Assembly: GCF_026151205.1 (NCBI RefSeq)
Contig: NC_087074.1
Span: 20,738,765 to 20,802,764 of the forward strand
Source: Bolinopsis microptera
Lineage: Eukaryota; Ctenophora; Tentaculata; Lobata; Bolinopsidae
DNA length: 64,000 bases
Direction: 5' to 3'
Shown in pieces: positions 5,730 through 64,000 of the stretch (within the stretch, counting starts at the first letter, position 1; each line of letters begins with the position of its first letter). The notes beneath the pieces are model-generated. The model had not been told where the DNA came from and made no database searches. It saw only the letters and a program-made list of their open reading frames with translations. The translations under genes and the position numbers were made by a program.

Positions 5730-5960
5730 TTACTGAATTTATCTGTGTATATTGTTTCTATTTTATAAAAATCTCCAAGAGATTTGTTTGATTCAACACG
5801 GACAAACTTATTTTCAGTTTTAGAAATGGATCTTCATGTTAGGAATTTATTCTTAAAATATATTTTTTGAATATTTACTGTGTTATAGATTTATTAATTC
5901 TTTTTGTCTATGATTCTGTTTGATAATAATAAACTTCTTGCAGAATTAATATATTATTTA

Positions 5961-5972
5961 ACCTCAGGAAAA
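5961..5972 (+). promoter_or_regulatory. 3' splice acceptor 5 nt before HTATSF1 ATG
   Basis: TTTAACCTCAG followed by GAAAA and then ATGG. The upstream in-frame sequence has no ATG of its own close by in a coding context, so the mature mRNA probably begins its leader here. It marks either the end of a 5'-UTR intron or a spliced-leader addition site. Confidence 0.55.
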
Positions 5973-7298
5973 ATGGCTGAGAAAGGTCTCTCAAGTGATG
6001 AATCGGACGAAGGGGAAGATAAGATAACTGTAGTGAGAGAAACAACTACAAGACCAGACATAGTTCCTCCTAAAGATGAACTTGAATACCAGTTACAGGC
6101 TGAACTCAGAGAAAAAGAAAAAATTGCAGCAGGACATTATTACTCTGATCCCAATGATGGTACATGTTATGAATGGGATGAGAGTCAGAGGGCCTGGTTT
6201 CCACGTATCACAGAAGACTTTTTGGCAGCATATCAAATGAGTTATGGTGTGACCCAAGACAACCAGTCCTCAAGTCCTGACAAGGACACCAAATCTGTGG
6301 AGTCAACTGATGTCAAGGAATCTTTACCTATTTCTGAACAGAAAGAGGACACTGTTCAAGTTGATCAAAATGAAGAAAGTGACTGTTCAAAAACTGTCGA
6401 AGAAAAATCTGTGCCAAAGAAACAGAAAAAGGAACCTGAATGGTTTCAAATGGATGCAGATAAGAACACATGGATTTATGTGTCTGGACTTCCTCTGTCG
6501 ATGAACTCTGATGAATTTCTTGCATTAGTTGGGAAGTATGGTTTAGTTATGGAGGACCCAGACACCGAGAAGAAAAGATTCAAAATGTATACCGACGACG
6601 AAGGAAACTTTAAAGGTGATGCAAAGTGCTGTTACTATAGAAAAGAGTCAATACCACTGGCAATTCAAATGTTAAACGGAACTAAGCTTCCGGGATCAAC
6701 TCATAAAGTGAAAGTTGAACAGGCGAATTTCGTTTTGAAAGGTGAATTCAACCCTAAATTAAAACCAAAGAAGAAAAACAATAAGAATAAGAAAAAGCGT
6801 AAGAAACAAGATAATATGTTAGATTGGAGGGATAGGGCTGGTGGTAATGATCTACGACCAAAACACGCCAAAATTGTCATCATGAAACACTGTTTCGATC
6901 CTAAAGAGTTTCTCGAAGATGCTTGTATGATCACTGAAATTCGAGATGACATAAAACAAGAATGTGAGAAGCTTGGACCAGTGAAAAAGGTTTTTCTGTT
7001 TGATCGACATCCTGATGGTGTAGTCTCAGTTAAATTTGATACTCACGAAGCTGCTGAGGATGCAGTCAAAGGTTTTGACAAAAGGTGGTTTGGTGGCCAG
7101 CAAATACAAGCTCACCAGTGGGATGGTGTGACCGATTATGCGATAGAAGAAACGGCTAAAGACCGTGAAGTTAGGTTAGCCAGCTGGCACAAGTTCATTG
7201 GAGATGGGGAAGTGGATGAGACTGCCCCTGCTACTCCCTCAGACAAACCTTCAGAACAATTATCAGTAAATACTGAAGATCATAATATTACAGCATAG
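5973..7298 (+). CDS. HTATSF1: HIV Tat-specific factor 1 homologue (U2 snRNP splicing factor)
   Basis: The product is 441 aa in one uninterrupted exon. It starts at the ATG in good context right after the acceptor (MAEKGLSSDESDEGEDK). The N-terminal motif YEWDESQRAWFPRITEDF (about residues 75-92) closely matches the animal Tat-SF1/yeast Cus2 family. RRM1 spans about residues 165-250 (IYVSGLPL). A Lys/Asn-rich linker follows. The C-terminal U2AF-homology motif domain (about 295-395) has the diagnostic R-W-F at 371-373, which in this family binds tryptophan-containing ligand motifs such as SF3B1. Known role: nuclear, assists U2 snRNP and branch-site recognition. The long acidic C-terminal tail of vertebrate TAT-SF1 (about 755 aa) is absent, as in shorter invertebrate forms. 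The reading frame is intact. A transposon begins 34 bp after the stop, so its 3' UTR is either very short or includes that element. An intronless coding region could be ancestral intron loss or retroposition. Confidence 0.93.
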   Translation: MAEKGLSSDESDEGEDKITVVRETTTRPDIVPPKDELEYQLQAELREKEKIAAGHYYSDPNDGTCYEWDESQRAWFPRITEDFLAAYQMSYGVTQDNQSSSPDKDTKSVESTDVKESLPISEQKEDTVQVDQNEESDCSKTVEEKSVPKKQKKEPEWFQMDADKNTWIYVSGLPLSMNSDEFLALVGKYGLVMEDPDTEKKRFKMYTDDEGNFKGDAKCCYYRKESIPLAIQMLNGTKLPGSTHKVKVEQANFVLKGEFNPKLKPKKKNNKNKKKRKKQDNMLDWRDRAGGNDLRPKHAKIVIMKHCFDPKEFLEDACMITEIRDDIKQECEKLGPVKKVFLFDRHPDGVVSVKFDTHEAAEDAVKGFDKRWFGGQQIQAHQWDGVTDYAIEETAKDREVRLASWHKFIGDGEVDETAPATPSDKPSEQLSVNTEDHNITA

Positions 7299-33098: not shown

Positions 33099-33168
33099 GG
33101 TTCGGTGGTGTAGGGTTATCACGTCTGCTTTACACCGCAGAAGGTCCCGGGTTCAATCCGGTCGAACC
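33099..33168 (+). tRNA. tRNA-Val(UAC)-like gene or pseudogene
   Basis: The acceptor stem GGTTCGG pairs with TCGAACC (one G-U). The A-box-like TGGTGTAG-GGTTATCA, anticodon arm CTGCTTTACACCGCAG (anticodon UAC) and B-box GGTTCAATCC are all in place. Compared with canonical tRNA-Val it is about 2-3 nt short. It lacks a base in the D loop and bases in the T-arm 3' strand, and has an extra C in the anticodon arm. It could be a pseudogene or tRNA-derived SINE head. Alternatively it is a good gene blurred by sequencing indels. No clear T-run terminator follows directly beyond CTTTTAG. Confidence 0.6.
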
Positions 33169-35700
33169 TGTCTTTTAGAACTTGAGAAAATTAAGTCAAT
33201 TCAACTGTTTAGTCATGTGTTTCAGAGAGAATAGTTCGTTATCTTTACCACTGTAAAGATAACCAATTTTAATTAATCGAATAAGGAGTGGAATTGGCTT
33301 AATGAATCTTGAAAAAAAACTCTTATTTCTGAAGATTATTTGTATAAAGGTAAGTTGGTAACACGAAATAAAGCTCACTCTTTAACTTTTGTTCTCTCTT
33401 TGTGTTTTAGTTTAATTTTCTATGACTTTTTGTCAATTTCACTAGAAGAAGGTGTATAAATAGCAACTTCAGATTGGCCATCGAAACTTACATCAGAATT
33501 TCACAGGATATATAAGACAAATGTTTTAGTGTGTACAGACTTTTACGCTACGTTAAATAAGCCATTAGGGGGTATTACAGGTACATTGATACCATGTTTT
33601 GCTACAGACCCCCCCCCCCCCACCGAGGAGTCTTTTTACGTGAATCTCTGCTGCATATATTAAAGAAGTCGCTAATATCGTAATGCAAATAACACGCATA
33701 ACTTAATGAATTCCTCACATTTGTTTAAATATCGGTTATTTCTTAATTTACCAATAAACAACATACCGTAATAATGCAGGTCGGTTTTAAGTCTACCGAT
33801 TAGTTAACATTCATACAGATAAAATACTTCTCTGCAGTAATTATTTTAAAAAACTGGTAGGGTAAAATCCGAGCTATGATTTTTGCACGTGAAACAATTA
33901 TTTTTTATCATAATTTGTTCCAACACCGAGTGTGCATCATAAGCCGTGATTTCTGGGGGGAAACTTGATCAATCTAGTAGTGGACGAATCCTCAGGGTTC
34001 AATTTAACATGCTCAGTTAGAAACAACCAGAACTCACTGTGCCATATTTACAGTACATTGTGCTATAATGTACAAATTGTACAGTGTACTAATATGTAAG
34101 TGTGTAGCATGGTTTCAGTAAATGTGTAACAGCACGATAATGATGATGGGAAAACTACACACGGTGTGTTGATGATATGAACTAGTTATGGTAACTACAT
34201 CCTCAGTGCTTCAATACAATAGCCTCCCTCTAATACAGCTGTTTAATTATATACTTATTAACAAATTATTATAGGAATGACAGGATTGCTGTCCACCTTA
34301 ACATTAACTTAACAATGGTCTCTGCGCGCGAATTGGATCAAGATTCCATTACTAACAGCACGAAGCCACACTAATGTCACATTAACCTGTAAAGGTATAG
34401 CGCTAATGGTCACATGTCACAGTAACTTGTCACATGTCACAGTTAACTTGTCACGCTCTAACTCGTACCATGTACAGTTGTGGGCGGGACACTGTTGAGT
34501 GGTAAGATATATTCATTGAGGATTGCGTGGTATGATATATTTATTAAGATTGCAGTACACTGTACAGTGTATCTAGGTATCTTATGTATTATCGGGTTTA
34601 AATTGAAGTTGGAAGTATTTGGCTATTTGTAAGTATAATTGACTAGTATAATAATAGTGAGAAATTTGCAGTATTCACCCGGATTGTACCAGCAGTCAGC
34701 ACATTTGTGGATGCACCGATTAATTTAATAAGTGGCACAGTAAGAATGTAACGCTGAACTTACTGATCCCGGACCCAACTTATACGGGATCATGGTAAGT
34801 TTATCATATTAGCCCCAATTTTACGTGGAATAAATGGAACAGTGAGGCAGTAAATTAGTAGTGTTAGTTAATAGGTAGAAACTCGTTATACTGACTTACT
34901 GGTTAAACTTAGGTAATTGTCGTTAGTCCGTATTTGAGACAAGTTCTAGAATCAAAGACTTGTTTGTTTGTATATAGAACCCGTCCCAATCTCGTCTCGG
35001 GAAACTGACCAAAACTCAATTTTGAGTTTCTATACGAGTGTTACCTGCAAGATTACTGTACCAATATTTTAATAATGGAGTTAGTGGGGATGGTTCAATG
35101 GATAGTCAGGAACCTAATGGTACCAGGTGCCGTATTCGGTACCAGGTACGTGCTAGAATTTCCTGGAAACTGCAGGACACTGGAGAGATGTCATTCATTC
35201 AGATTTTAAGCACTTTGAAGGATCAGTCAGTCAGGACGTTGAATGATTTCCGGATTTAAATGACTCCTGTCCAGGGCAAGTCATTCATTTTAAATTTCTT
35301 CTTGGTGATATTATATAATACACTAGACCAGTTGGCTATTAAGTAGAGCGAATAGGTGGTGTGATTGACAGTTCAGAGGTTGCTCCTTACAATTCAGTTG
35401 CAAATATAGATTGAGCTATAATTATAATAGAGATGTTTGTAAGCGTTTGATACAGAATCATGAGATTCGTGATAGTTTCTACCTTGTTGTACATGGTTGG
35501 AACAATCATGAATCAAATTCATACCTAACCACAGTTCATCATCAGTGTCAACAGCTTATAAGACTGTACATATCTGCACTAGATATCTATATATATCATA
35601 CGCAATTATAAACCCCATTAAAATGAATTTAAATATTGTCAATCTCACAATTTAAACTTACCACAAAACCGTAAAAAACAAATCCTTGTGTGTCACATAC
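33169..35700. other. No gene recognised
   Basis: A+T-rich sequence with repeated CACATGTCACAGTAACTTGT units near 34400-34450. An open stretch at about 35038-35259 has no convincing start or splice context. Confidence 0.35.
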
Positions 35701-46843: not shown

Positions 46844-48029
46844 CTACCCGTAGTCAGGAGAAAAAGAATTGTCAGGATCTGAACTAGGGTCAATATCTAC
46901 AGATGCAGTACAAACATGTTCCTTCCAGATGTGTTTAATAAGTTCTGTTTTAAACGCACCTGGTCTGATAATCTCTCGAAGGGAAAGAGGAAGTCGGTTC
47001 CAAGTGAGATGAGCTCGATAAAAGTAAGATTTAGATATAGCTGAGCCAGGTGGAATTGAAGATATTACTGATAAGTGATCAAGATGTGAGCTTCTCAGTC
47101 GGCTTGACCCGGAGAAGAAAGTAAGGTACTGAGGCAGAGTGGTGCATGGGTGGTAATGATGCACTAGGGAATGAAAGAACTTGAGATCATGGTAATCAAA
47201 CCTGTACTTTAGGGGCAGAATATTTAACTGTTTACAATGGGCATTATAGATTTCCTCTACACTATAGCTTACACCGTAATCATTACGAATCCATTTGAGG
47301 GCCCTTTCTGCAATCCTTCAAGCCTATTGATAGTGCTACTGGACGCTGGTCGCCAAATGATGGGACAGTGTTCGAATATTGAGCGTACAAGAGTAAGATA
47401 CAAGACTCTTCTCTTGTTCAGATCATTAATAAAATGACAATTTCTCTTAAGCATGCCAAATTTTTGGTTAGCTTTACCATATAGAGCATCGGCCTGGCTA
47501 TTAAAATTTAGATTAGACGTCATGATTATGCCTAAATCTTTTTCAGAATCTGTATAATCAAGAAGAGTTTGGCCCATAGAGTAAGTGTAACGTGTAAATG
47601 GTAAAATGCCATCTAAGGGAGACCACCTCTTAAGTATAGCTAAGACCTTACATTTATCAGGATGAAACTTCATCTTATTAGTTCTTGCCCATGTCATGAG
47701 ATAATTAATATCGCTTTGAAGTATATGGTGGTCTTCCTCTTGGGATATCTCTCTCCAAATTTTAGTATCATCAGCGTATAAAAGGATATTAGTGCCCTGA
47801 GAAAGTCCAGAATATATATCATTTATGAAAAGAACAAAAAGTGTTGGTCCGATTATTGACCCTTGAGGAACACCTGACAACACCGGTAAGGTTGCAGAGA
47901 TAGCCCCATTAACAACTACACATTGCTGACGTCCGGAGAGGTAACTTTTCATAAATTGGAGAAGCATTCCATCGATGTTATAATAAAATTTTAGCTTGTA
48001 TAGTATTAAGTCGTGGTTAACGGAATCTA
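46844..48029 (-). pseudogene. Non-LTR (LINE) reverse transcriptase, 5'-truncated, one frameshift
   Basis: The minus-strand reading opens at 48029 with LDSVNHDLILYKL (remnant of RT motif A, xFDSVxH). It runs through motif B SGVPQGSIIGPTLFVLFIND and catalytic YADD (motif C), then the thumb region HPDKCKVL and GIIMTSNLNFNSQA. It continues to KGPSNGF, where a single-base change shifts the frame (about 47307-47313). The 3' part continues in another frame through HHYHPCTTLPQYL, RAHLTWNRLPLSLR and ends SFSPDYG at 46844, the conserved C-terminal region of CR1/jockey-like LINE ORF2. No endonuclease domain is present. The 5' end is cut by the 15-bp minisatellite at the motif-A aspartate. A run of about 28 A (46801-46828) abuts the 3' end on the plus strand; in element orientation this is poly-T, so it is not a normal tail. 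Confidence 0.88.
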
Positions 48030-48571
48030 GAGGAGGTGTTACTAGAGGAGGTGTTACTAGATGATGTGTTACTAGATGATGTGTTACTAGATAAGGTGTT
48101 ACTAGAGAAAGGTGTTACTAGAGGAGGTGTTACTAGAGGAGGTGTTACTAGAGGAGGTGTTATTAGAGGATGTGTTATTAGAGGAGGTGTTACTAGAGGA
48201 GGTGTTACCGGAGGAGGTGTTATTAGAGGGAGTGTAACTAGAGGAGGTGTTACTAGAGGAGGTGTTACTAGAGGAGGTGTTACTAGAGGAGGTGTTACTA
48301 GAGGAGGTGTTACTAGAGGAGGTGTTACTAGAGGAGGTGTTACTAGAGGAGGTGTTACTAGAGGAGGTGTTATTAGAGGAGGTGTTACTAGAGGAGGTGT
48401 TACTAGAGGAGGTGTTACTAGAGGAGGTGTTACTAGAGTAGGTGTTACTAGAGGAGGTGTTACTAGAGGAGGTGTTACTAGAGGAGGTGTTACTAGAGGA
48501 GGTGTTACTAGAGGAGGTGTTACTAGAGGAGGTGTTACTAAAGGAGGTGTTATTAGAGGGAGTGTAACTAG
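48027..48571. repeat. 15-bp minisatellite GAGGAGGTGTTACTA, ~36 copies
   Basis: Highly homogeneous array with variants (GATGATG, TTATTA, GGGAGTGTAA). It begins inside the LINE coding sequence: the first unit overlaps the codons before DSVNHD. The repeat gives spurious open frames in several registers. Confidence 0.97.
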
Positions 48572-49178
48572 ATTATTATTCTTATTCTAGGACTGAGTCT
48601 AACCCCCAATCTTAATTTATAGTTTGATAAAGGGTACCTCCCAGCTGGACCAGACGTTCACTTTTGGTTATAACCTATAATACAGTAAAATATGGATAAT
48701 AAATTAAAATAACCAGTAATAACAGATAAGAGGCGGTTTTAACTATTGTTAATTGTTATCAGATGTACTGAGGAGTGCACAAAATAATGGCAAACAACCC
48801 ACTTATAAATAACCCGCAAACTTATTAAGACCACAAGGTTGCTGAACTTGATAAGCTAAAAACTTATTACACTATTTTTATTTCACTTTTTCAAATTAAC
48901 ATTGGTTATATTTCTCGCCCTCTTCAACTGAGATGATTCGTAAGCAAATCATATCATATTGAATCGTTAACAAAGTTGGGGCCCGAATATTTATAAGCAG
49001 TTCAGTATAACACTAATTTATAAGCATTTGTAAATTATACGCTTACCTTGTCATGTGTTTAGCCACTACATAACCACGAGAAGCCCCCAATTGATCAATT
49101 AGTCTATTGTTAAGCAGATCAACAACCAATACGCTGGTCACAACCTCATTAAAATGAACCACGTCGGCATTTCGTATA
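48572..49178. other. No gene seen
   Basis: A+T-rich sequence between minisatellite and TIR element. No supported feature. Confidence 0.35.
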
Positions 49179-57165: not shown

Positions 57166-59746
57166 TTAATGTCTTATCACGTGAGCTATAGGCTCCAACA
57201 AATCTAATAATCTGGATATAATATTATTAAATGCAGTACCACTGTCACCACTGTCACCACTGTCACCACTGTCACCACTGTCACCACTGTCACCACTGTC
57301 ACTACTGTCACTAGAATACTTCCTTTCTGGAGTTTGGTATAACACAACAGAACACTTTACACGGGCTCGTGAGATTGCAAGATAAAGTTGACTGATGTCC
57401 CATAAAAACGAATCGACCTCAACTTCATGTAACACAATAACAGCAGGCCACTCAGATGAAAAGCTGTCAAAACCTGTACATATTGATATCTTATTAGTGT
57501 CGTAACCTTCACTACTCAGTGTCTTTACAATAAACTGTTCTGTCTTAGTATCTATCATTTTAGTTACCAATATTCCAATGTCGGAATAATCTAAATCATC
57601 TCCCTTTAACAACATCTTAAATTCATTTATCAAGACATCTTTTATCAAGGTATAATCATCATTCTCCAAAACATGTATCTTAGTTAAAGGTCCTCTTATA
57701 AAATGTCCATCTTCCTGTTTTGGAAAAATGTATCCAAATTCACTTCCTACCATGTCAGCGCAAAAACCCCTCACTACAGATAAAACAGATGATATGTCTT
57801 GAGTGTTCCTCAAATTTTTAGGTAATGTTACTCGCCGCACACTCGACAACTTGTCCTCTATATCTAGTAAATCATGTATTTGAAAAAGATATTTACTATC
57901 CGTATAAAGGAAACATTGTGCTATGTCACATACCACCCACACGTGGTGTGCAGCAGACAACTTGATAAGATCGTTAAGAAGCTCTATAAATACATGTTTA
58001 GTCCCCAAAATGGGGTAGTTGGATATTAAAGCCTGGATATCGTCTATAAATACACTACTATCTGTTAGAGATATTGCCAGTTCTCTAAAAACACGTGGAA
58101 CTCCAATTCTAGACACATATCTATAGTGACAATTACAACCTGGTAATGTTCTTTAATATCATTTATCTCATCTGACACGATCGATGTACATTTCTTGTAA
58201 CTGTAAGTCTTACACGTAACCCCTGCTTTACTCAGTGCAGTTTGATACAAGTTAGCGTTATTACCTTTACCAGCAAATGTGAATACCACGATCTTGTTCT
58301 TCTCATCAGATAACGCTAACTGTAAAATCTTCCCGCACATTACAACTGTTTTGCCTGACCCAGCCGGTCCGTTTATCCACAACAACTTTTCTTTCGATTT
58401 TAATGTCTTGTCTTGATCAGCAGTCAAATATTTGATACCGACATAATCTCTTACTTCAGGGGGAGCTTCTACTACACCAGGATTTGAATTGACATTTCTT
58501 ACTCCCTTTTTCTCAAACGTGATAATTGCTGTCTTCAACTTCGCATCGATGTCTCGTATGTTCTTCCTAATGAGCATATATTTTTCTCACATATATTATT
58601 CTTGTTAGCCCACAATGCGAGAAGAACGTTTTCAGTCTCTTCAAATGATACAGGAGATTGTTGATCCTTTGATATTTCTTCTGTAACGTTTGTTTTCCAC
58701 CAAGAACTAAAGCTATCATCACTCTCTATGTCCACTTTAGTGATTCTTCCCACACATCTTTCTTTCTCATACGGAAATGCGGCAAACTTTAAAATTTTAG
58801 GAACTACACTACCTAACATTTTAGCAATCCCTAGAATAAGCTTTTCTGTTCTGCTTGCTTGAAGCTCTGCCTCATTCCGATCAGCTGTGTTTTTCTTGAC
58901 TTCGATGATAACAAAATAGTATTTTCCCATTACAATAAAATCACACTCCCCTGTTATGTTTCCATCACATAGTTTCCTCTTTTTCTTACCCATTTTCTCA
59001 CTCTCGAAAGATTCCTCAACAAACAGCTTGTAATCACTGCGAAGGTATTTTAAACCGTGAAGTACGGTGATTTTATCATGATGTTTTATTCTCTCAAGAA
59101 CCCTAAAAACCTTTACCTCAGCCTCAAACCCATATCTGCTATTTTTAAGTTCTTCACAGTACTTTGGAACTCCAGAGTTAGTTTTCTTGCACTTATTGGA
59201 TTTCTTGAGCTTGTTCACAGAATTCCAATCAATTTTGTCGATAAATTTTGAAAGAGGCATTGGTGGGACCATAACCGGGTAATACACAGTTGGTTGTTCT
59301 GGATCCTGTTTGGGTAGTGGCTCGAAAGTAGAGATATAATTTTCCCTTATATCTTTACCATCTCTTTTCAAATCTGCCAACCGATCACCTGTTAAAATAG
59401 CTCGTCATGAGATGTTATATAGTTCATGGTATCACAAATCTTCATAACAGGGGGAGGGGGTTTATATCTTGTTTTCTTAGTTATGGGATAAAATATTTCA
59501 AGTGAAAAGGGTTGTTAAATGAGTCTTATTGAAAGAAATCGATACTTGAGGAAGGAGGGATAGTATAAGAGAACGAGAATAAGGAAGTGAGGGGTACATT
59601 AAAGAACGAGAGAAAATAGAGTGTTAAGAAAATCTGTAAGCAGAGTTCCCTTAAAAATTAGGCTGGTAACCAACCTGTATTTTGTTGATGGGAACTAGAA
59701 GTAGCCAGCTCAGAATCCTGTCTTGCATTATTTGAAGATTCGACCA
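57166..59746 (-). CDS. NERD-type nuclease / superfamily-1 helicase fusion protein (two frame breaks)
   Basis: Two exons are seen: 59746-59675 (low-complexity VESSNNARQDSELATSSSHQ..) and 59388-57166, phases joining in one Gly codon. Upstream exons are unknown. Domain order: an N-terminal linker, then a PD-(D/E)XK nuclease of NERD type with GFEAEVKVFRVLERI (Glu), GECDFIVMGKYYFVIIEVKK (Asp...Glu-x-Lys); then a UvrD/DUF2075-like helicase with Walker A GPAGSGKT, Walker B VFIDDIQAL and motif VI SQLYLAISRARVKCSVVLY. A Ser-Asp/Gly-Asp-Ser tandem tail follows near the C-terminus. About 760 aa would result, but one base is missing at about 58552 and one at about 58103. At the second site the inverted paralogue carries the extra base. 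Likely a nucleic-acid-processing enzyme; in bacteria such fusions occur in defence and repair, while in animals the role is not established. Breaks may be mutations or assembly errors. Confidence 0.82.
57233..57305. repeat. In-frame 9-bp repeat encoding (Gly-Asp-Ser)n
   Basis: Eight copies of CCACTGTCA on the plus strand encode S/G-D-S triplets in the C-terminal tail of the nuclease-helicase. A pure in-frame array suggests length polymorphism in the protein tail. Confidence 0.9.
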
Positions 59747-59879
59747 CTGAAAAGTAGTGATTACCATGTGTTACATAAACAAAGTAATAAAATCTAGAAG
59801 TATATCCATCGAGGTGTAATTTAGTGTTGGTCGTTTAAGAGGGTTCAACATCTCCAGACATAAGGTAGACTAATGTAGG

Positions 59880-60112
59880 GAGGGGTTAGATTAGAGATTA
59901 GAGTAAGGTAGGGAGGGGTTAGATTAGAGAATGAGAGTAAGGTAGGGAGGGGTTAGATTAGAGAATGAGAGTAAGGTAGGGAGGGTTAGATTAGAGAATG
60001 AGAGTAAGGTAGGGAGGGGTTAGATTAGAGAATGAGAGTAAGGTAGGGAGGGGTTAGATTAGAGAATGAGAGTAAGGTAGGGAGGGGTTAGATTAGAGAA
60101 TGAGAGTAAGGA
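59880..60112. repeat. 35-bp minisatellite, left block (~7 copies)
   Basis: The unit is GGTTAGATTAGAGAATGAGA followed by GTAAGGTAGGGAGGG. Homogeneous. It continues directly into the purine tract, whose GAGAGTAAG words derive from the same unit. Confidence 0.95.
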
Positions 60113-61990
60113 GAGTGAAAGACAGAAGAGAAGAGTAGAGGCAGCAGAAGATAAGAAGAAGCGCAGAAAGAGAGCAAGAGGAGAGAAGAGAAGAGAGAGA
60201 AGCAAGAGAGAGAGGAAGAGAGAGAGAAGAAGAGAGAGAAGAAGAGTAGAAGGAGAGAAAGAGAGAGAGCAGAAGAAGAGAAGAGAGAGAAGAGAAGAGA
60301 GAAAAGAGAGAGTAGAGGAGCAGTAAGAGAAAGAGAAGAGAGAAGATAAGAGAGAGAGAGAGAAAGAAGAAGAAATGAGAAAGAAGAGAGGAGAGGAGAA
60401 GAGCAGAGTGAGAAGAGTAGAGAAGAGAAAGAGAAGAGAGAGAGAGAGAAAGAGAGACAGAGAAGAAGAGAGATAGAGAGAGAGAGGAGAAGAAGAAGAG
60501 ACAGAGTAAGAGGAGCAGAGAAAGAAGAGAGAAAAGCAGGAAGAGAGAAGAGAGAAGAGAGAAGTAGAGAGAGAAGAGATAGAGAGAAAGCAAGAGAGAG
60601 AGAGAGGAAGAGAGAGAGAGTAGAGATAGAAGAGAGAGAGAGAAGAGAGCAAGATCAGGGAAGAGAGCAGAGAGAAGAGAAAGAGGAAGAAGAGAGAGAG
60701 AGTAAGAAGAAGAGAAGAAGAAAGAAGAGAGAGAAGGAGAGATGAAGAGAAAGAGAGAGAGAGAGAGAAGTGAGAGAGAAGAAGATGCGAGAGAAAGAGA
60801 GAGAGTAGAAGAGAGGAGAAAGAGAGAGAAGAGATAGAGAAGAGAAGAAGAGAGAGAAGGAGAGAGTAAGAAGAGAGAAGAAGAAGAGTAAGAGGAGAGA
60901 GAGAGAGAGAGAGAGAGAAGAGAGCAGATAAGAGAGAGAAGGAGAGAGACAGAGAGCAGAAGAGAGAAGAGGAAAGAGAGAGAAGCAGCAGCAGAGAGTA
61001 GAGAGAGAGAGAGATAGAAGAAGAAGGAGAGAGAGAGAGAGCAGAGAGAAGAAGAGTAGAGAGAGAGAGAAGAGAGAAGACAGAGCAGAGAGAGAGAGGA
61101 GAGAGAAGAGAAGAAGAAGAAGAGAGAGAGTAAGAAGAGAGAAGAGAGCATAAGCAGAGAGAGAGAGAGTAGAAGAGAGCAGAAGCAAGAGAGAAGAGAT
61201 AGAAGAGAGAAGAAGAGAAGAGAAGAGAGAGAGAGAGAGACAGAAGAGAAGAGAAGAAGAGAGAGAGAGAGGAGTAGAGCAGAGTAGCAGAGTAAAGAGA
61301 AGAAGAAGTGAGAGAGAGCTAGAGAGAGACAGAGAGGAGAGAGAGAGAGAGGAAAGAGAGAGTATAGACAAGAAGAGAAATGAGAGAGTAGAGAGGCAGA
61401 GAGTAGAAGAGAGGAGATAGCAGAGATAGAAGAGCAAAGAGAAGAGAGATAGCAGGAGAGTAGAGAGAAGGAGAGAGGTAGCAGGAAGAAGGAGCAGTAG
61501 AGAGTGAAGAAGAAGAGAGAGGTGAGAGAGATAGGAGAGATAGAAGAGAGAGAGAGAAGAAGAGAGAAGGAGAAGAAGAGAGAGAGCAGAAGAGAGAAGA
61601 GAGAAGAGAAGAGAGAGAGAGAGGAAGAGGAGAAGAGGAGAAGAGTAGAAGAGAGAGAGAAGAGAAGAAGAGAGAGAGAGAGAAGAGAAGTAGAGAGAGA
61701 GAGAAGAGAGAGAGAAGAGAGAAGAACAGGAGAGAGAGAGAGGTAGAAGAGAGAGAGAGCAGAGGGAGGGAGAAGTAGAGTAGAGAGCAAGGAGCAGAGA
61801 GAAGTAGAGCAGTAGAGAAGAAGCCAGAGAGGAAGAGAGTAGAGGAGTCAGAGGAGGAGAGAGAGAAGATCAGAGAGAGAGGAGAGAGTTGAGAGAAGAG
61901 AGTAGATAGAGGGCAGAGAGAGGAAGAGAGAGAGAGAATGAGAGATAAGAGAGAAGATAGAGAGCAGAGAAGAAGGAGAGGTAAGAAAGG
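60113..61990. repeat. Nearly pure purine (GA-rich) tract, ~1.9 kb
   Basis: Plus strand is almost entirely G and A in short (GA)n, GAA and AGAGAG words with isolated C and T. Long Ser/Leu-rich minus-strand open frames over it simply reflect the lack of stop codons in polypyrimidine sequence. It could adopt triplex (H-DNA) structure. Confidence 0.97.
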
Positions 61991-62003
61991 AGTGAGAATG
62001 AGA

Positions 62004-62628
62004 GTTAAGGTAGGGTGGGGTTTATTAGAGAATGAGGAGTAAGGTAATCGGGAGGGGTTAGATTAGAGAATGAGAGTAATGTAGGGATGTATTAGATTAG
62101 AGAATGAGAGTAAGGTAGGGTGGGGTTAGATTAAAGATTGGGTAAGGTAGGGAGGTGTTAGATTAGAGAATGGGAGTAAGGTAGGGAGGGGTTAGATTAG
62201 AGAATGAGAGTAAGGATAGGGAGGGGGTTAGATTTAGAGAATGGAGAGGTTATGTAGGGGAGGGGTTAGATTAGCGAATGAGAGTAATGTAGGGAGGGGT
62301 TAGATAAGAGAATGAGAGTAATGTAGGGAGGGGTTAGATTAAGATTGAGAGTAAAGGTAGGGGAGGGGTTAGATTTGAGAATGAGGAGGTTAAAGGTAGG
62401 GAAGGGTTTGATTAGAGAATGAGAGTAATGGTAGGGAGGTGTTAGATTAGAGAAATGGAGTAAGGTAGGGAGGGTGATATAATAGAATGAGAGTAAGGTA
62501 GGGAGGGGTTAGATAATTAGATGAGAGTAAAGGTAGGGAGGAGGTAGGATTAGAGAATGAGAGTAATGTAGGGAGGGGTTAGATAAGAGAATGAGAGTAA
62601 GGTAGGGAGGGGCTAGTTTAGAGAATGT
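62004..62628. repeat. 35-bp minisatellite, right block (~18 noisy copies)
   Basis: Same unit as the left block, but copies carry frequent single-base indels and substitutions (for example GGATAGGGAGGGGGTTAGATTT), in contrast to the clean left block. Confidence 0.93.
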
Positions 62629-64000
62629 TATAAAGATTTGTGATACCATGAACTATATATAACATCTCATGACAAGCAATTTTAACAGGGTATCGGTTAG
62701 GACAGATTTGACAAAAGAGGATGGGAAATGATTAAGGGAAAATTATATCTCTTCTTTCGAGCCACTACCCAAACAGGATCCAGAAACAACCAACTGTGTA
62801 TTACACGGGTATGGTACCACCAATGCATCCTTTCAAAAATTTATCTAAAGTTTTTTTGACAAAATTGGATTGGAATTCTGTGAACAAGCTCAAGGAAATC
62901 CAATAAAAGTGAAGAAAACTTATCTCTGGAGTTCCAAGTACTGTGAAGAACTTAAAAATGGCACGATGGGTATGAGGCTGAGGTAATGGTTTTTAGGGTT
63001 CTTGAGAGAATGAAACAACACGACAAAATCACAGTACTCCACGGTTTAGAATACCTTCACAGTGATTACCAGATCTTTGTCGGAGACCATCTGTACATAA
63101 CTGGTGATAAGAAGGGGCAACCATGTGATCGAGACGAAGATGCAAAAGAAGGAGAGTGTGATTTTATTGTGATGGAAAAATACTATTTTGTTATCATCGA
63201 AGTCAAGAAAAACAGAGCTGATCTCGACGATGCAAAACTTCAAGCAAGCAGGACAGAAAAGCTTATTCTAGGGATTCTAAATGTTAAGTAGTGTAGTCCA
63301 TAAAATTTTAAAGTTTGCCGCAATTTCCGTATGAGAAAAAAGCTGTGTGGAAGAATCACTAAAGTGGACACAGAGGTGATGATAACTTTAGTTTCTTGGT
63401 GGAAAACATAAAGTTACAGAAGAAATATCACAAGGTCTCAACAATCTCCTGTATCATTTGAGAGACTAAAAAGTTATTCTCGCTTGTGGGTAACATGAAT
63501 AATATATGTGAGAAAAATATATGCTCATTAGGAAGGAAACATACGAGACATCGATGCGAAGTTGAAGACAGCAATTATCACTTTTGAGAAAAAGGGAGTA
63601 AGAAATGTCAATCAAATCCTGGTGTAGTAGAAGCTCCCTGAGTGAAGAAAGTATGTCAGTATCGATTTTTGACTGCTGTTATGACAATACATTAAGAATC
63701 GGAAAGAAAAGTTGTTGTGGATAAACGGACCGGCTGGGCAGGCAAATCAGTTGTAATGGTGGGAGAAGATTTACAGTTAGCGTTATTGATGTGAAGAACA
63801 AGGTTCGTGGTATTCACATTTGCTGGTAAAGGAAATAACGCTTCCTTGTATAAACTGCGTGAGTAATAGCAGGTTACGTGTAAGACTTACTGTTTCAAGA
63901 AATATGTCATTTCGATCGTGTCAGATGAGATAATGTTTATTAAGATCATTACAGGTTGTAATTGTCACTATAGATATGTATCTAGAAATTGGAGTTTCAC
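62629..64000 (+). pseudogene. Second NERD nuclease-helicase copy, inverted, indel-rich, cut by window end
   Basis: From AAGATTTGTGATACCATGAAC (intron sequence shared with 59406-59446 in reverse), through the TTTTAACAG acceptor, this is an inverted paralogue of 57166-59446. It retains VFRVLERMKQHDKITVLHGL, GECDFIVMEKYYFVIIEVKK, the Walker-A region (ATAAACGGACCGGCTGGG..) and the helicase lead-in. Many one- or two-base indels break the frame. Between HSDYQIFV and GECD the sequence differs completely from the first copy (about 24-25 residues), while flanks are about 90-95% identical at DNA level. It is therefore a true paralogue rather than a fold-back artefact. Confidence 0.8.

Follow-up and report, generated by a model that had tools for sequence, protein, structure and literature searches.

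An inverted NERD-nuclease/helicase gene pair in the ctenophore Bolinopsis microptera: a recurrent His/Cys loop probably lost in one branch, and signs of diversifying selection in the helicase

Why should two copies of one gene differ in a short loop just ahead of a nuclease active site? The question is raised by a stretch of 64,000 nucleotides from the genome of the ctenophore Bolinopsis microptera (C3:20738765-20802764; hereafter the window), which holds near its right end two homologous genes in inverted orientation, each encoding a NERD-type nuclease joined to a superfamily 1 (SF1) helicase. The initial annotation had read the loop as a hypervariable element that confers target or inhibitor specificity, under diversifying selection or cassette exchange. 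The evidence set out below points to a different explanation, namely that the pair belongs to a family of about 144 loci, that a His/Cys loop was lost in the branch to which the pair belongs, and that selection acts in the helicase, by a mechanism proposed below; for this explanation as a whole, mechanism included, a probability of about 0.6 seems appropriate.

The left copy lies on the minus strand at 57166-59449, of which the last 60 nt (up to 59449) look like intron, judged by an acceptor-like site. Its main coding exon (57166..59390, minus strand, the start being inferred from the acceptor-like TTTTAACAG) encodes an N-terminal segment, the NERD nuclease, a linker, the SF1 helicase and an (SGD)n tail, with the nuclease core (FEAEV, loop, GECDF, IIEVK) at 58808..59131 on the same strand. 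The right copy starts on the plus strand at 62626, its first part (62626..64000) continuing past the window end into the adjoining stretch (L053), where the gene ends within the next 4 kb, the last open frame closing about 1.1 kb further on. Homology between left and right spans at least about 4.5 kb, 3′ flank included, and the pair consists of two family members duplicated over at least that distance in inverted orientation; a tblastn search of the 64-kb window with the left protein pieces found no further copies besides these two. For the NERD domain (PF08378), the open reading frame (ORF) of the right copy scores 24.2 bits (curated cut-off 22.1) and the left copy 17 bits, under the cut-off, while for the UvrD/P-loop helicase the left middle frame scores 25.9 bits and the left read-through 23.1 (cut-off 23). 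Among six long paralogues, NERD is above its cut-off in five (L049 is not listed), and the UvrD helicase scores 17-22 bits in three and is unlisted in the other three. The inverted NERD-nuclease/SF1-helicase pair described by the initial annotation is borne out. Neither copy is one open frame in the assembly: the left is broken into three frames (58535-59404, 58065-58586 and 57166-58152), and the right has many breaks and an in-frame stop beyond the window. An early idea of a frame break common to both copies was dropped after comparison with the paralogue L049. The (SGD)n microsatellite of the coding tail has 6 units on the left (57244-57297) and 23 on the right (L053, 860-1066).

In the genome as searched (264,652,675 bases in 232 contigs), PF08378 had 91 matches with E no worse than 1e-3; 89 of these are free of internal stops, and many lie in open frames of at least 700 residues. 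The left-copy protein as query gave 149. All these counts are lower bounds, as is that of their union, which comes to 144 loci after merging at 1.5 kb. These occur on each of the 13 large contigs and on C70, and 45 have a neighbor within 50 kb. The paralogues read comprise 46 stretches (L009-L054), picked by best NERD score or by nearness to the window protein; the sample is hence non-random, and it is redundant, many members being nearly identical, with one loop sequence present eight times and another five times. The stretches contain 108 ORFs with 150 residues or more; 45 of these match the nuclease pattern, 27 of the 45 having at least 600 residues. The pattern misses some members, L028 and L047 having been dropped from the site models for not matching it. 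ECDF and E(V/I)K, which contain the catalytic residues of a PD-(D/E)XK nuclease (the D in GECDF and the E-x-K), were found in 47 of 47 aligned domains, in part by construction, as 44 of these had been picked by a pattern that holds the motifs. In 20 paralogues the helicase motifs GPAGxGK, DDxQ, CDxxQ, LRNT, WPAVI and SRAR are invariant or nearly so (motif numbers used below follow the general convention for helicases).

Around five of the paralogues (L017, L024, L026, L027 and L033), which are dispersed, the homologous unit has similar ends between subgroups (near -650 and +530 relative to the ORF), which could mean dispersal other than tandem duplication. The same five have, by eye, a tRNA-like stretch downstream of the ORF, in the common 3′ region, which was not confirmed by ARAGORN (none in eight loci) or Rfam (none in four loci, L027 lying outside the Rfam scan).

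The loop could be read in 44 of the 45 matching ORFs, one being cut off before the anchor. The pattern C-x3-H-x(3-6)-C-x2-C is present in 19 loops, and 21 have only its second part, H-x(3-6)-C-x2-C, so that a His/Cys pattern is found in 40 of 44. Among the paralogues read, what had been taken for a hypervariable loop is thus a recurring element, and a loop conserved in the paralogues is an outcome that the initial annotation had itself named as counting against its reading. The four exceptions, L049, L050, L051 and L052, form one branch together with L054 and both window copies (7 of 47 tips; support 0.999, midpoint root). The His/Cys loop thus appears to be the common state of the family and to be missing from the branch of the window; a sister branch is without most of the loop, which is nearly gone in L050-L052, and the left copy of the window then changed fastest, mostly nonsynonymously. 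From the spacing of its residues, the loop perhaps binds zinc. L050 (C1:1.50 Mb), L051 (C1:1.59 Mb) and L052 (C7:1.99 Mb), with their nearly deleted loops, are also set apart, by eye, by a hydrophobic, membrane-anchor-like N-terminal stretch and by a long repeat of the KTEEDKVFERLL type that separates the nuclease from the helicase.

With the anchors used here, the loop of the left copy has 22 residues (58952..59017, minus strand) and that of the right copy 23 (63082..63150, plus strand); the residues quoted by the initial annotation and their place between (H/R)SDY..FV and GECDF stand, and the length of 24-30 residues does not. Calling the two loops unrelated was also too strong. Their DNAs align above chance, the score being reached in 9 codon-shuffled and 10 base-shuffled alignments out of 5000 each, even if the loop proteins alone align no better than chance (1881 of 5000 shuffles reach the score), and the right loop is nearly identical to those of L049 and L054. 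To judge from these alignments the two loops are homologous, and the left one, in which the His/Cys pattern of the family is missing and which differs from the loops of its nearest relatives, is the odd one. Over 13 ungapped loop codons the copies differ by 0.44 nonsynonymous changes per nonsynonymous site (dN) and 0.23 synonymous changes per synonymous site (dS). In the arms of the loop (71 codons), when changes are polarized with L049, the left copy has 10 nonsynonymous and 2 synonymous changes and the right copy 1 and 7, with 4 undecided (two-sided Fisher 0.0045 for left versus right). The loop difference of the pair would then be mostly a one-sided change in the left copy, and this one-sided nonsynonymous excess, taken with the two frame breaks, speaks for relaxed constraint or decay of that copy.

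The remaining differences between the copies are of two kinds. Outside a block that corresponds to 58826-59133 of the left copy, 53 indel events and 42 substitutions were counted over 884 aligned positions, and the substitutions comprise 32 transversions to 10 transitions, spread flatly over the three codon positions (14/15/13). Inside the block, 24 substitutions in 242 positions comprise 13 transitions and 11 transversions and favor the third codon position (5/6/13), and there are two indel events, both at the block edges, versus 14.5 expected (Fisher P 0.0005). Neither count includes the loop, with 16 substitutions and 5 indel events over its 58 aligned positions, or a further 139 positions located at ends and frame joints, which have 8 substitutions and 9 indel events. 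As an indel every 17 bases is accompanied by transversion-rich, codon-blind substitutions, the right copy outside the block looks like sequencing noise typical of uncorrected long reads. The block itself, which in the right copy is a clean segment of about 310 nt holding the nuclease core (62966..63276, plus strand) with error-like differences everywhere around it, is truly diverged, with dN 0.081 and dS 0.290 against the left copy (loop excluded), a purifying pattern. Past the window the copies differ in more patches, in the helicase, one of which, by eye, immediately precedes motif VI, a place that varies in the family too. The earlier statement that the two copies are very similar except for the block is hence wrong; the divergence appeared confined because the clean block sits within noisy right-copy sequence, and more generally uncorrected long-read sequence that encloses a clean block can mimic a hypervariable cassette.

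The sequence between the two genes has a similar aspect. A 34-bp minisatellite near the left copy (59863..60117, plus strand) is nearly exact, with five units by approximate matching, four of them exact and one with three differences. It is followed by a GA-rich low-complexity tract (60110..61990) of about 1.9 kb, irregular and without a clear period, which is possibly raw long-read sequence and has the same minisatellite on either side. Beyond the tract, the minisatellite continues in the same orientation (61990..62630, plus strand), irregular and with many small differences, its ungapped copies being 61-88% identical to the reference and a unit scan finding only 2 units; there it adjoins the noisy right copy. 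The published assembly of B. microptera was made from PacBio reads with wtdbg, TGS-Gapcloser and pilon (PMC10232365). By our reading of the same source the PacBio reads were continuous long reads, and noisy patches would be expected where long reads closed gaps and short-read polishing needs unique mapping.

Where selection acts was asked of the other family members, the window copies standing outside these tests. Over nine independent close pairs, the pooled ratio of nonsynonymous to synonymous differences per site (pN/pS) is lowest around motif I (0.28), followed by the surroundings of motif IV (0.35), the linker (0.36) and the nuclease (0.47), and in the loop it is 0.73 (bootstrap 0.34-1.94), which is not shown to exceed 1; the pair L050/L051, although among the close pairs compared, is left out of these values and of the nine-pair model. 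For the whole gene (8 paralogues, 705 codons), model M2a improves on M1a by a doubled log-likelihood difference (2dlnL) of 138.4, with 11% of sites at a dN/dS ratio (omega) of 4.2, compared with at most 3.3 in 12 M1a null simulations that were run on a fixed tree and with fewer optimizer steps than the real fit. The posterior of the selected class exceeds 0.9 at 29 sites; 26 of them fall in the range 389-705, and the loop has none. The nine-pair form of the model, on which recombination among branches has no misleading effect, yields a 2dlnL of 141.0 and 27 sites above 0.9, all at or after 389, and the 420 columns as far as position 384 contain no such site. In the loop, the posterior has a mean of 0.006 and a maximum of 0.04 with the 8 paralogues, and a mean of 0.043 and a maximum of 0.47 with the nine pairs. 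When two subfamilies were partitioned, the variable helicase segments gave 2dlnL of 81.1 and 45.7; for this test and for the pooled pN/pS these segments had been drawn after viewing mostly the same sequences, and the whole-gene and nine-pair site models are independent of that choice. As far as home-made codon models can show, members of the family other than the pair are thus under diversifying selection in helicase segments between the motifs and not in the loop, so that the diversifying selection proposed earlier finds support for the family but none for the place to which it had been assigned. The family has the features of a diversifying one, being multigene (144 loci), partly clustered (45 with a neighbor closer than 50 kb) and, by the same models, endowed with sites of omega above 1.

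A mechanism can be proposed on this basis. Judging from the families of its two domains, the protein would use ATP to move along nucleic acid and would feed foreign or damaged molecules to the nuclease linked to it, and the loop, where present, might be a small zinc-bound element that braces the nuclease. The pattern of selection suggests that surfaces of the helicase diversify against parasites or their inhibitors, and the changing contact could be parasite nucleic acid, a parasite protein or an inhibitor. The family would then be a candidate for a role in defence.

Several observations weigh against this explanation. The loop columns are less conserved than the arms (mean majority 0.57 vs. 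0.78), although this is to be expected where the ligands of a loop are fixed and its spacers free. Structure predictions reached a mean predicted local distance difference test score of 34 and 49, too poor to use, and zinc binding and the location of the selected sites are accordingly conjectural. The codon models are our own code, the null simulations cover the 8-paralogue model, the tree-based test may owe part of its signal to gene conversion, and some signal (2dlnL of 19.0 and 26.1, 1% and 3% of sites) also came from outside the variable segments when the gene was partitioned. The reading of the family covers L009-L054, the frame breaks of the left copy could be consensus errors, and the changes of that copy may be positive selection instead of decay. 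In five helicase segments between motifs the pooled pN/pS is 0.96-1.19 and every interval includes 1, which is also what a housekeeping DNA-repair enzyme would show if it had been amplified by chance and its helicase changes reflected relaxed constraint only. The site models, however, need a class with omega of about 4-6 while the adjoining motifs are conserved, and such a copy number would be unusual for a repair enzyme, so that we consider this alternative unlikely. Together with the idea that a mobile element carries the family, as its own gene or as cargo, it is nevertheless the main rival of the proposed mechanism. Mobility would account for copies dispersed over all 13 large contigs and for the common unit ending alike between subgroups of one subfamily on different contigs (at about -620 to -700 on one side of the ORF and about +530 to +545 on the other). 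Yet other pairs have different extents, the ends fade, promoter, 5′ exon and intron-like parts seem, by eye, to travel with the gene, and the nuclease and linker are under constraint; terminal repeats or target duplications were not seen by eye in one 5-copy flank alignment, with no systematic repeat or transposase test made. An element of this kind is, in our estimate, a rather poor bet.

The two remaining alternatives concern the pair itself. The view of the initial annotation, in which diversifying selection or cassette exchange shapes a specificity loop in the nuclease, would fit the strong difference of the left loop, with dN above dS in its ungapped codons, and the nonsynonymous excess beside it; the best case in its favor, which also counts against the explanation preferred here, is the pair L024/L033, with 13 nonsynonymous to 1 synonymous loop differences. 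These have to be set against the His/Cys pattern of most paralogue loops, the likeness of the right loop to L049 and L054, and the want of any loop site with a posterior above 0.9 or of a pooled pN/pS shown to exceed 1, and the idea is left with little probability. The right copy could also be an assembly artefact, a haplotype or a read placed inverted rather than a separate gene, given the noise, satellite and GA tract at the junction and the closing of gaps with long reads in the published assembly (PMC10232365). Against this stand the block, with its dS of 0.29 and purifying pattern, the patches of its own that the right copy has beyond the window, its 23 versus 6 SGD units, and the single orientation of the minisatellite on both sides, which fits no simple fold-back; an artefact therefore seems improbable, though with better prospects than a specificity loop. 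A fold-back read had been considered separately, and was ruled out by that single orientation and by the divergence of the block.

If the explanation preferred here is taken one step further, the family might be a hitherto undescribed arm of innate defence in comb jellies, with more than 100 NERD-nuclease/SF1-helicase paralogues, perhaps of bacterial-defence origin, that combine a constant nuclease and its metal-bound loop with helicase surfaces tuned to parasites or their inhibitors. We put this forward tentatively, at less than even odds. If true, a very early-branching animal lineage would have expanded a bacterial-type nuclease-helicase into a large diversifying family, and ctenophores would offer a testable candidate for nucleic-acid immunity in which selection falls on the motor and not on the nuclease.

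Elsewhere in the window, a 466-residue open frame with RRM domains (5898-7295, plus strand), which we take to be HTATSF1-like, and a tRNA gene found by Rfam (33099-33169, plus strand) were recorded.

How the family compares with known systems depends on partial matches. No literature linking ctenophores to NERD or Schlafen, or the NERD domain jointly to eukaryotes and metazoa, was found, most subscription journals being outside the coverage of the search. Likewise, no relatives were confirmed in IMG/VR, plasmids, phages or GTDB contigs with queries of single proteins and a few short patterns, by which distant bacterial relatives could be missed. No solved-structure relatives of the left pieces were found, and the matches listed were to an RNase P protein for the read-through helicase (E 0.79 and 0.85) and to P-loop regions for the family profile (E 0.012-0.053). 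Within ctenophores, large expansions of putative immune genes with TIR, NACHT and SRCR domains are described (PMC11797021), which differ in their domains, the main text of that paper being without any mention of NERD, Schlafen or nuclease. The Schlafen group 3 helicase domain (PF09848) resembles the family in a weak ATP-site match (17.2-22.7 bits where listed), which is always below the curated cut-off of 24, and no Schlafen core domain is listed.

Closer likenesses are found among bacterial defence proteins, and four paralogues were scanned against the profiles of PADLOC. RTasNERD-Hel, filed there under the defence-associated reverse transcriptases (DRT) of bacteria, is a NERD-helicase by name and matches residues 79-246 (nuclease) of one of the four paralogues at E 1.1e-7 with the N-terminal part of its profile; it differs in length (519 profile positions versus about 750 residues in the family) and matches in the nuclease part only. 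The window has an RVT_1 reverse-transcriptase fragment of its own (47272-48114, minus strand), taken as a retroelement, which adjoins a short-period satellite (48027-48572). C3a187 (NERD and UvrD), presumably a CRISPR type III accessory to judge from its name, has the same two domains and matches two of the four paralogues (1.2e-5 and 1e-4), although the match is confined to the ATP-binding region; for neither profile was a full-length match found in the four paralogues, partial matches alone being listed. The right-copy ORF matches a Csx1-type model at 2.2e-4. GajB, the UvrD-like helicase of Gabija, is the best PADLOC match of the left middle frame (9.5e-7) and is also matched by two of the four paralogues, in both cases within the P-loop region. 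Nhi, the bacterial nuclease-helicase immunity protein, combines nuclease and helicase in one protein as the family does, and its ATP-binding region matches the left copy at 1.6e-5 and three of the four paralogues at 3.1e-6 to 1.5e-5, again with the match confined to the P-loop region. Taken together, these matches, all of them partial, point to bacterial NERD/UvrD proteins of defence loci as the nearest profiles to the ctenophore family.

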